From positions 1 through 64,000 of the forward strand of contig SZPG01000010.1 in assembly GCA_030263595.1 (NCBI GenBank): DNA of 64,000 bases. The letters run 5' to 3'. The notes under the pieces are model-generated. The model was not told the origin of the DNA. It worked only from the letters and a program-made list of their open reading frames with translations, and did not search any database. Both the position numbers and the translations under genes were made by a program. The stretch comes from Chloroflexi bacterium CFX6 (GTDB taxonomy: Bacteria > Chloroflexota > Anaerolineae > Anaerolineales > Villigracilaceae). Shown here piece after piece: positions 40,556-49,055 of this stretch. Position 1 is the first letter of the stretch, and every line of letters starts with the position of its first letter.

Positions 40556-41974
40556 ATGCCGCCATTGAAGTTCCTATCCGACGACGATATCCAAGCGATG
40601 CACGAAGCCACGCTTCGGGTCCTGCAGGAGGCGGGCGTCTTTTGGACGCACAAGCCCAGCCTCGAAATCCTGCAAGACGCGGGATGCACCATCAAAGGCA
40701 ACCGCGTCTTCTTCCCTCCCGACCTTGTGATTGATTCGATTGCGAAGGCGGACAAGCGTCCCGTCATCCGCGGACGCAACGGACAGGTCAACGAGTTGGG
40801 AGGCGGGAACTTATACTTCCACAACCTCGGCGGTGCGAGAGACGTGTTCGATACGAAAACCGGCACACGCCACGTGGCAACCGTACAGGATTCGAAGGAT
40901 GCGGTGCGCCTGCTCGATGCGCTTCCCAATTGTCATACCGTCACCCCATTCTTTACGCCGCCCGACGTATCCAATGAAATGCTTTCGCTGCACATGTATC
41001 GCAGCGCGCTCTCGTACACGACCAAACCCGTGCAGGGACCCGGCATCCAGTTCGGGCATGAGGTACGCTACGCGGTGGAAATGGCGGCAGTGGTCGGCAC
41101 ACCCGCGCATGAACTCACGTTGTCGCTTTCACCGGTCAGCCCGCTCACCATGCACGACATCGCCGCCGAAGCGATCATGGAGATGGCAAAGCACGGCGTG
41201 ATCCAATCCAACCTGCCCTGCCCAACCGGTGGCGCCACCTCACCGATGACCATTACGGGCAGCGTCGTGCAGCAAAGCGCTGAGACGCTCGCTCCGCTGG
41301 TACTGGCGCAGCTCATCAATCCGGGATGCGGCGTGGTGTATTGCGGGAGACTGGGGATGCTGGAGCCGCGCACCGGCTTGATCTGGGGAGGCGCGGAACT
41401 GGGCTTATCCTCCGCCGCCACGGTTCAACTCGGACATTATTACGGATTCAGCGTCAACGTATATGGGTTTTCAACGAACGCCCATACGCTCGACGCCCAG
41501 AACGCCTTCGAGCGCGGACTCAACGCCGCCATCCCTGCCCTGGCTGGCGCGGATGAACTCTCCGGCATCGGTGAAATGGAGGCGGGCGTGATGGGCTCCT
41601 TCGCGCAAATGGTTCTGGATAACGAACTTGCTGGAAGCGTGTTGCGATTACGCAAAGGACTCTCGGCGGACGCCGAACACCTCGCAGTGGACATCATCCT
41701 TGACGTCATGAACGGGACGCGCAATTTCCTCGGCCAGAAGCATACGATGAAACATCTGCGCGGCGGGGAAATGGCGCTGACAAAACTTGCCGAACGCAAT
41801 TCCTGGGATACCTGGGACGAAAAACTCGAACGCAAACAAATGGCGGATCATGCCATCGCCGAAGCGGAGAGGATTCTGCGCGAACACGAGGTCCCGCCGC
41901 TTTCGCCTGAGCAGGAAAGAGAACTTGATAAAATACTGGCGGCGGCTGAAGCGGAAACGGCGAAGAAGAAATAA
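40556..41974 (+). CDS. MttB-family (non-pyrrolysine) methylamine:corrinoid methyltransferase, paralogue 3
   Basis: A 472-residue paralogue. MHEATLRVLQEAGVFWTHKPS opens it; SPVSPLTMHDIAAEAIMEMAK and PCPTGGATSPMTITGSVVQQSAETLAP are barrel motifs, and FLGQKHTMKHLRGGEM ends it. No amber codon interrupts the frame. It is the third distinct member in 6.5 kb. Ribosome site AGAGGAG lies seven bases before the start. Substrate unknown; see the cluster finding. Confidence 0.9.
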   Translation: MPPLKFLSDDDIQAMHEATLRVLQEAGVFWTHKPSLEILQDAGCTIKGNRVFFPPDLVIDSIAKADKRPVIRGRNGQVNELGGGNLYFHNLGGARDVFDTKTGTRHVATVQDSKDAVRLLDALPNCHTVTPFFTPPDVSNEMLSLHMYRSALSYTTKPVQGPGIQFGHEVRYAVEMAAVVGTPAHELTLSLSPVSPLTMHDIAAEAIMEMAKHGVIQSNLPCPTGGATSPMTITGSVVQQSAETLAPLVLAQLINPGCGVVYCGRLGMLEPRTGLIWGGAELGLSSAATVQLGHYYGFSVNVYGFSTNAHTLDAQNAFERGLNAAIPALAGADELSGIGEMEAGVMGSFAQMVLDNELAGSVLRLRKGLSADAEHLAVDIILDVMNGTRNFLGQKHTMKHLRGGEMALTKLAERNSWDTWDEKLERKQMADHAIAEAERILREHEVPPLSPEQERELDKILAAAEAETAKKK

Positions 41975-46995: not shown

Positions 46996-48096
46996 ATGCC
47001 ACCCATTTTTCCCTTTACAGCCATCGTAGGACAGGAGCGCATGAAACGCGCGCTCATTTTGAATGCCGTTGACACGCGCATCGGCGGCGTGTTGATCCGC
47101 GGCGAACGCGGCACTGCCAAATCCACTGCGGCGCGCGCGCTTGCAGCCCTGCTGCCCAAGGTCAGGGTCGTGGATGATTGCCGCTTCGGCTGCGATCCCG
47201 ACAAGCCAAACAGTTGGTGCACCGAGTGCAAGGAGCGGTTCGAGGGAAAACAGGAAGTCCCGTTCCACGTCCGCACTACGTCCTTTGTGAACCTGCCCGT
47301 CTCAGCCACGGAAGATCGCGTGGTCGGCACGCTCGACATCGAGCAGGCGATCCAGAAGGGCGAGCGTCACTTCGAACCCGGCGTCCTGGCGGGCGCAAAT
47401 CGCGGGCTTCTCTACATTGACGAAGTGAACCTGCTCGACGATCACGTGGTGGACGTCCTGCTGGACTCCGCGGCGATGGGCGTGAACGTGGTCGAACGCG
47501 AAGGCATTTCCTTCTCCCATCCCGCCCGCTTCATCCTCGTCGGGACGATGAATCCCGAAGAGGGGGAACTCCGCCCCCAATTGCTGGATCGCTTCGCCCT
47601 CTCCGTGGACATCGTGGGCATTCGCGAGGCGCGTGAACGCGTGATGATCATGGAGCGCAACATCGCCTTCGAACAGGATTCGGAAGCCTTCCGTCAACAG
47701 TGGATGCCGAGGGAACAGGAACTCTCGCGCCAGATCGAGCGCGGGCGCGAACTTATCGGGCAGGTCACACACACCAGCCGCGACCTGCTCTCCATCGCCG
47801 CGCTGACCGCTTCGTTGAACGTTGACGGTCACCGCGCGGACCTGGTCATCCTCAAAGCCGCGCGCGCCCAGGCGGCCTTCGAGGGCCGCACCAAGATCAA
47901 CGATCACGACATCGCGCTTGCGGCGGAACTGGCTCTCCCTCATCGCATCAAGCGGACTCCCTTCCAGCAGGCGGAGATGACAACCGAGCAGTTGCAGGAA
48001 CGCATCGAACAGCTGGCAGGCCAGTCGGTCCCGAATGAAGCGGAAGCGGACGAGTCCGAATCCCAGCAAAGCAAGTCCGAGGAAAAAAAAACTTAA
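46996..48096 (+). CDS. Magnesium/cobalt chelatase ATPase (ChlI-like) part of a ChlD-type gene
   Basis: A 366-residue AAA+ ATPase. It starts FPFTAIVGQERMKRALILNAV; the P-loop reads RGERGTAKSTAA (about 35-45), a cysteine-bearing insert CRFGCDPDKPNSWCTECKERF is typical of BchI/ChlI, Walker B is LLYIDEVNLLDD (about 140), and MNPEEGELRPQLLDRF follows. The frame stops at a TAA just after a run of nine A's. Reading through in the -1 frame joins it to the VWA protein at 48147. The family inserts Mg or Co into tetrapyrroles. With B12-dependent methyltransferases in the window, a role in cobalt insertion is likelier than chlorophyll synthesis, but the large subunit is not here. Confidence 0.92.
   Translation: MPPIFPFTAIVGQERMKRALILNAVDTRIGGVLIRGERGTAKSTAARALAALLPKVRVVDDCRFGCDPDKPNSWCTECKERFEGKQEVPFHVRTTSFVNLPVSATEDRVVGTLDIEQAIQKGERHFEPGVLAGANRGLLYIDEVNLLDDHVVDVLLDSAAMGVNVVEREGISFSHPARFILVGTMNPEEGELRPQLLDRFALSVDIVGIREARERVMIMERNIAFEQDSEAFRQQWMPREQELSRQIERGRELIGQVTHTSRDLLSIAALTASLNVDGHRADLVILKAARAQAAFEGRTKINDHDIALAAELALPHRIKRTPFQQAEMTTEQLQERIEQLAGQSVPNEAEADESESQQSKSEEKKT
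48083..48092 (+). promoter_or_regulatory. Putative programmed -1 frameshift site
   Basis: Nine A's then C. In the ATPase frame this is AAA AAA ACT TAA; slipping one base back gives AAA AAA AAC TTA and leads into the VWA frame without a stop. A AAA AAA is a well-known efficient slippery heptamer. GAGG lies just upstream and a GGGC/GCCC hairpin candidate lies about 40 bases downstream. Confidence 0.7.
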
Positions 48097-48146
48097 AACT
48101 CGAGGATGAACGCGAGGAGGGTCCGCAGGAGGGCAAGCCCGAACCG

Positions 48147-49055
48147 ATGAAACAGGACGTGTTTGCGAACACATCCGCCAATTGGTGGGAGGGCGGACAG
48201 AAGGTCAAACCTGGCGAAAAGTTCCAGCCGCGCAAGTTGAACACCCCGCTCGATAAATTAGCCCGCAAACACGCGGGCAGGCGTTCATTGACGAAGACCG
48301 AACGCAAACACGGACGTTACATCAAGGCGCGTCCCGCCGGTAAACGGAAGGACGACATCGCCTTCGACGCGACTTTCCGCGCCGCCGCGCCTTATCAAAA
48401 GAAGCGCACCGAAAAAAGAAAACGTCTTGCCTTTGCAATCGAATCGTCCGATTTGCAGCGCAAGGTGCGAGTCAAACGCGTGGCGAATTTGGTTTTGTTC
48501 TTGGTGGACGCCTCGTGGTCCATGGCGGTTGCGGAGCGGATGAACGCGACCAAGGGCGCGATCCTGTCCCTGTTGACGGATGCGTATCAACGCCGCGACC
48601 GGGTCGGGCTGATCGTCTTCCAAAAGGACCGCGCCACGCTCGTGTTGCCCCCGACCAACTCCGTGCAGCTCGCGCAACGCGCGCTGATGGATATTCCCGT
48701 CGGCGGGAAAACCCCGCTTTCCGCCGGGCTGCTCCTCGCCGCGGACGTGCTGCACCAGGAAAAAATTCATCATCCCGACATCGAGCCGCTGCTGATCGTA
48801 TTGACCGACGGCGCGGGGAACGTGTCCATCGGCGCGCTGCCCCCGCAGGAAGAGTCCTATCGTTTCGCGGAAATGATCGTGCACGAAAAGGTCAAAAGCG
48901 TGGTCATCAACATGGAGCACGCCGCCTTCGACCAGGGCCTCGCCCAACAACTGGCGAACCATCTCAAAGCGCCGTGTTACGCGTTGAGCGAATTGAAAGC
49001 CGAGAACCTGTATCACGCCGTGAAGGATGAGATGACGAGACCGATGAAGAAGTGA
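48147..49055 (+). CDS. VWA-domain part of a ChlD-type chelatase subunit
   Basis: A 302-residue VWA protein. It starts with an acidic/basic linker and has the MIDAS metal site LFLVDASWSMAVAER (about 110-125) with TDGAG near 220. It closes with the family's LAQQLANHLKAPCYALSELKAEN. It is equivalent to the C-terminal half of ChlD/BchD. The ATG at 48147 has no visible ribosome site, and the frame is open upstream to the nine-A run, so translation more likely continues from the ATPase by frameshifting, giving a fused ~680-residue subunit alongside the short ATPase. Confidence 0.88.
   Translation: MKQDVFANTSANWWEGGQKVKPGEKFQPRKLNTPLDKLARKHAGRRSLTKTERKHGRYIKARPAGKRKDDIAFDATFRAAAPYQKKRTEKRKRLAFAIESSDLQRKVRVKRVANLVLFLVDASWSMAVAERMNATKGAILSLLTDAYQRRDRVGLIVFQKDRATLVLPPTNSVQLAQRALMDIPVGGKTPLSAGLLLAADVLHQEKIHHPDIEPLLIVLTDGAGNVSIGALPPQEESYRFAEMIVHEKVKSVVINMEHAAFDQGLAQQLANHLKAPCYALSELKAENLYHAVKDEMTRPMKK

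Follow-up and report, generated by a model that had tools for sequence, protein, structure and literature searches.

The chelatase gene at positions 46996 to 49055 of the window, the 64,000-nucleotide stretch of Chloroflexi bacterium CFX6 DNA that was analyzed, probably encodes two proteins by way of a ribosomal −1 frameshift in a chlD-type gene, namely a ChlI-like protein of 366 aa and a ChlD-like protein of 686 aa. The window is part of contig C85 in a draft genome of 141 contigs that is 91% complete. An earlier note on this DNA had described a gene split between its ATPase and VWA parts at nine A's, with the VWA part in the −1 frame; this observation is confirmed by the sequence and by an uninterrupted profile match across the junction, and its interpretation is partly supported. 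The frame at the run (48083-48091) reads GAA AAA AAA ACT TAA, and the following features were assigned:

46996-48096, plus strand: ATPase (ChlI-like) half, which alone is the 366-aa short product (open reading frame, profile match, closest structures ChlI/BchI)
48083-48091, plus strand: nine-A run with the in-phase slippery heptamer A_AAA_AAA at 48084-48090 (sequence and relatives)
48090-49055, plus strand: −1 frame with the acidic linker and the VWA half (profile, structures, codon-position differences)
48094-48096, plus strand: 0-frame stop TAA, end of the short product (sequence)
48096-48146, plus strand: stretch ahead of the first −1-frame ATG, evolving as −1-frame coding sequence (46/27/172 differences, 25 relatives)
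48147-48149, plus strand: first −1-frame ATG, not conserved and unlikely to be a needed start (sequence and relatives)

Read from 48090, the −1 frame encodes NLKLEDEREEGPQEGKPEP and its stop codon ends at 49055; the frame is already open upstream of the A run and remains so up to 49055. The long product joins the first 365 residues of the ATPase frame to 321 residues of the −1 frame, and its 686 aa agree with the 679-688 aa of five relatives that keep the run and have the gene in one frame. Profile TIGR02442 (NCBIfam 'putative cobaltochelatase') matched with its positions 1-352 before the junction and 353-640 after it without a gap, which implies that no part is absent or duplicated there. In the PDB, the ATPase half came closest to ChlI 8osf (E 1.5e-99) and the −1-frame half to the VWA domain of BchD, 2x31 (E 1.3e-17). 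Scored as two separate halves, the gene gave 509 and 269 versus a cut-off of 779 for TIGR02442, 421.5 versus the curated 467 for TIGR02030 (ChlI equivalog), and 257 and 191 versus 500 for TIGR02031 (BchD-ChlD equivalog). The nine-A run is the only one on either strand of the window; however, 0.60 such runs are expected by chance and at least one occurred in 37 of 100 shuffles, hence the evidence lies in the conservation of the run and not in its rarity.

This conservation extends over the whole order. Both halves could be read in 168 distinct loci, that of the window among them; 160 of these show the −1 arrangement, six are in frame and two were scored +1. These rows derive from 184 loci, after removal of nine duplicates and of seven loci whose fetched stretch contains no VWA half and stops at most 275 bases from the ATPase match; left out beforehand were L059 (a ChlI-like gene standing by itself, with no VWA half), L153 (a duplicate), L163 (a placeholder) and the divergent chelatase genes L062-L064, which have 51-53% identity and whose junction is not shared. 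In the −1 class the run is A9 in 97 loci, A10 in 33, A7 in 26, A8 in three and A6 in one, with A7 enriched by later sampling aimed at A7-run groups (previously 11 of 152). An A_AAA_AAR heptamer lies in phase before the 0-frame stop in all 160 loci, being A_AAA_AAA in 159 and A_AAA_AAG in one according to the printed codons, the latter in the sole A6 case, L200. Since an in-phase heptamer is automatic for runs of at least nine, the telling cases are A7 (26/26) and A8 (3/3), many of which are related to one another. In 143 of 143 −1-class loci measured, the distance from the run to the start of the 0-frame stop is 1-53 nt, with a median of 3, a count that omits two loci with an upstream stop. 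A run of A9 or A10 with the −1 arrangement was also present in 79 of 80 named records (74 A9, 5 A10), the last ending at a contig edge; these records overlap the surveyed genomes and the two sets are not independent.

The gene itself is similarly widespread. Of the 61 near genomes, counting the own one, 60 match the ATPase half at E ≤ 1e-30, a cut-off loose enough to let in a distant paralogue, and 56 match it at E 9.1e-144 or better. At E ≤ 1e-120 the gene was found in 262 of the 301 genomes sampled from the order and in 165 of the 175 good-quality ones; this search listed at least 150 places, of which 130 were read, and among the 150 matches listed are the five one-frame genes that keep the run, four of them chosen for their long frames. 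Judged by sequence comparison, such wide conservation among order-level relatives is a matter of recoding and not of sequencing error. Recoding in chlD-type genes is already known, whereas the order-wide retention, the few relatives in frame or in +1 and the difference in hairpins between A7 and A9 genes are new. That such frameshifting had been reported before, as the earlier note stated, was borne out by measurements in E. coli (PMC3711429, available part) and by Anaerolineaceae genes (PMC9227772). The fs-chlD genes share with the window gene the two halves of one chlD-type protein in overlapping frames, with ATPase half, stop, poly-A slippery site and VWA half in −1, as described in the available text of PMC3711429 and in PMC9227772; the window gene and an order-wide survey do not appear in those accounts, as far as the available text goes. 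Our literature search returned nothing on slippage or frameshifting in this order, within the limited collection and wording searched. The fs-chlD genes have reportedly also been studied by Antonov in 2020.

With respect to mechanism, a fraction of the ribosomes would terminate at 48096 and release the ChlI-like AAA+ ATPase of 366 aa, and the remaining ribosomes would slip by −1 on A_AAA_AAA at 48084-48090 and continue through the linker and the VWA domain, giving the ChlD-like protein of 686 aa. ChlI/ChlD and CobS/CobT assemble as mixed AAA+ rings; the two products predicted here, identical in their ATPase part, would probably form a mixed ring as well. For CFX6 we infer the slippage, its site on the ribosome, the ratio of the products and the ring from these comparisons. 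In E. coli, chlD cassettes of other organisms shifted at 63% with 11 A's, 40% with nine and 10% with seven (PMC3711429, available part), from which a sizeable share of long product may be expected for the window gene. Similarly, dnaX of E. coli and Thermus thermophilus has an A_AAA_AAR or A9 site and two products with a common N-terminal part, but it belongs to a different family, and the shift there leads to the short product, whereas here it is needed for the long one; the reverse dnaX arrangement has been reported in a few bacteria (PMC5009743, available part). A downstream RNA structure is described as usual for fs-chlD (PMC9227772), although it is not universal; the window gene differs in this respect, as no stimulatory hairpin beyond chance was found downstream of its A run (z between 0.09 and 0.95 over four stretches, and −4.1 kcal/mol for the strongest single hairpin compared to −4.2 in its own control). 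The dnaX-type label given in the earlier note suits the heptamer, and of the conserved run, stop and downstream structure for which it had pointed to related genomes, the run and the stop were recovered, along with a strong hairpin in nearly all A7 genes.

The −1 outcome could also arise during transcription, with RNA polymerase varying the number of A's and mRNAs with one extra A being translated into the long protein. We regard this as improbable, yet retain it because nine A's are known for slippage of RNA polymerase: A9 is a published length for transcriptional slippage and is used by Thermus dnaX (available parts of PMC1088944 and PMC5009743). Moreover, the window lacks a hairpin, A9 genes have weaker ones than their controls (−3.2 versus −5.1 kcal/mol), and variants that keep the run in frame or in +1 would function just as well under transcriptional slippage. 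On the other hand, the exact phase of the heptamer in 26 of 26 A7 genes, mostly with a hairpin (22/26), fits ribosomal slippage in those relatives, and the bias of 160 of 168 loci to −1 would not be expected if A's were gained and lost alike, although common descent explains it too. The ribosomal −1 reading, which we prefer, is in turn opposed by the missing hairpin in the window, by the one-frame loci that keep the run, by a second copy without run and by one real +1 case.

The length of the run and the structure following it differ between relatives. The strongest hairpin starting 2-14 nt past the run averaged −11.9 kcal/mol in A7 genes compared to −7.0 in the own-gene controls, −3.2 compared to −5.1 in A9 genes, where hairpins were weaker than the own controls (Wilcoxon p 5e-8), and −5.9 compared to −5.3 in A10 genes. 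A hairpin reaching −8 kcal/mol was present in 25 of 26 A7 genes, 10 of 97 A9 genes (the window not among them) and 10 of 33 A10 genes, while two of three A8 genes lack a strong one; in 22 of the 26 A7 genes the hairpin is located 6-8 nt downstream of the run. The difference between A7-A8 and A9-A10 was significant (Mann-Whitney p 2e-12) and a linear model including GC gave a run-length effect of −4.8 kcal/mol (s.e. 0.7), with a weak difference between short and long runs in the control windows too (p 0.04). However, the A7 loci sit in two families of the order, 16 with hairpins of −11.1 versus −4.9 kcal/mol in the controls and 10 with −13.1 versus −10.4, and a FastTree phylogeny yielded three independent pairs on supported branches (seven on all branches), in which the hairpin changed in the same direction in 0.9 on average, never in the opposite one and not at all in 2.1. 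Given so few independent pairs and the strong controls in one family, the link may owe to ancestry or base composition, although a short run with a hairpin looks like compensation, in line with the published effect of run length. In L206, L208, L210, L215, L216, L231, L238 and others, a CGCCGG-loop-CCGGCG hairpin with varying loop begins 6 nt past the A7 run. It is conceivable, if rather doubtful, that lineages of the order differ in the device by which this gene makes its two products, A7 plus hairpin acting on the ribosome in some and bare A9-A10, possibly acting on RNA polymerase, in others including CFX6, and that the resulting AAA+/VWA pair has a client other than CobN/ChlH and no role as tetrapyrrole chelatase. 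In any case, the contrast between run length and hairpin offers natural constructs for locating the boundary between ribosomal and transcriptional slippage.

Two separate proteins could instead result if translation began internally, or resumed, at ATG 48147. The earlier note had seen no ribosome site there; in fact GGAGGG is present at 48128-48133, but its spacing of 13 nt to the ATG is long for such a site and the ATG is not conserved, several relatives having T, Q, S, A or N in place of its Met, which makes a needed start unlikely. Furthermore, no ATG, GTG or TTG occurs between the slip site and a conserved WW motif in 73 of 155 genes. The 51 bases ahead of the ATG (48096-48146) evolve as −1-frame coding sequence: in 25 relatives whose ATPase half is 84% or more identical and whose linker has the same length, differences from the window numbered 46/27/172 at −1-frame codon positions 1/2/3, and 143 codons differed synonymously compared to 62 nonsynonymously. 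The unconserved ATG and this coding constraint upstream of it rule out an internal start as the main route, and separate initiation is altogether very improbable. Taken together with the conservation in 160 of 168 loci, the codon-position signature bears out the claim that the gene is recoded to the −1 frame and so yields two products.

A homopolymer error hiding a single frame, which the earlier note had offered as the alternative and which a draft genome, error-prone homopolymers and possible errors in certain odd relatives might suggest, is scarcely credible, since 160 of 168 loci are −1, A9 or A10 recurs in 79 of 80 named records and the same A9 and stop are found in many separate assemblies, including the single-contig genomes G011 and G025 (loci L014 and L026). 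Conservation refutes sequencing error for the family; reads of CFX6 itself would bear on the exact A count here alone.

A few relatives depart from the common arrangement. Continuous genes lacking the run, which the earlier note would have counted against recoding, are not the pattern in the order: besides the 160 loci in −1 there are a single continuous run-less second copy and five continuous genes with the run kept at A8-A10 (L039, L148, L149, L150 and L151). In L152, of the same genus as L039, the VWA half is in +1, which −1 ribosomal slippage does not account for; this locus and the six continuous ones count against a uniform picture. L034 was also scored +1 by the script; its actual junction is −1, with a second frame break further along. 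Some of the odd-frame relatives may be assembly errors. A selected −1 stop in the one-frame relatives, which would be a reversed arrangement resembling that of dnaX, was considered and gained no evidence: a −1 stop lies within 33 nt in five of the five one-frame loci that keep the run and likewise in 121 of 142 control genes. The run-less copy, L277 (G318:C2:94330-95397), occurs in genome G318 together with the frameshifting L272 (G318:C13), as though two products were shared out between them. The divergent genes L062, L063 and L064 (51-53% identity) belong to G058, G046 and G045, respectively; L063 is continuous, and L062 and L064 are broken in the direction opposite to the window gene.

The role suggested in the earlier note, small and medium cobaltochelatase subunits, did not find support. 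The CobN/ChlH large subunit (PF02514) was not found in any of 61 near genomes, own included, and the genome-wide look for cobN proposed in the earlier note gave no match; as the own genome is 91% complete, absence there alone is weak. In the order, PF02514 was detected in two of 301 genomes, one by a partial match, and in none of the 175 good-quality ones (control search positive in 5 of 14 genomes). CbiC/CobH (PF02570) of corrin-ring synthesis was not found in the own genome, and among the 61 near genomes two have it, G038 and G045 (control search positive in 7 of 14), and CbiX was found in nine of 61, the own genome not among these. With CobN/ChlH and CbiC not found, a role as cobaltochelatase subunits is unsupported. 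The gene shares AAA+ and VWA parts with magnesium chelatase ChlI/ChlD and cobaltochelatase CobS/CobT, but differs from both in that CobN/ChlH was not found in its 91% complete genome. We infer an AAA+/VWA machine acting on a client other than CobN/ChlH or together with an unrecognised large subunit. fs-chlD without large subunit has been described in Brevefilum fermentans, and in four Anaerolineaceae species together with a chlI gene (PMC9227772). The question raised there about ChlI/ChlD pairs without ChlH or CobN becomes testable in a well-defined lineage, for which breadth is the useful part: the gene is near order-wide and the large subunit almost missing from a sample of the same size. 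The only near full-length CobN/ChlH match in the 301 genomes, G204:C15:49068-52274, is in a genome that has the frameshifting gene too (L202).

No separate chlI gene is present in the window, as the earlier note stated; elsewhere in the genome, however, a distant ChlI-like paralogue without evident VWA partner lies on contig C96 (G000:C96:39404-40411; L278:5336-6550, minus strand), with 37% identity, a 426-aa frame and 272 bits versus the ChlI cut-off of 467. Within a few kb of it are genes for a B12-binding protein (PF02310) and a URO-D-family protein; in seven loci compared, own included, the paralogue was present in seven, a URO-D-family relative in five and the B12-binding gene in fewer than three. 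Around the frameshifting gene, surveyed in flanks of at most 6 kb that were frequently ended by contig edges, the commonest neighbours in 80 named loci plus the window were a divergent S1-domain gene (54) and a peptidase M19 gene (51), followed by a short protein (43 loci) and another that was not seen near the window gene (23). No tetrapyrrole-synthesis neighbour was recognised over these loci, with family scans run on the S1 and M19 genes and three other genes of the window. A trimethylamine methyltransferase gene of the MttB family (PF06253) is located at 40556-41974, about 5 kb upstream of the chelatase gene, and clustered with the neighbours in six loci including the window, a count that may be too low given flanks of no more than 6 kb.
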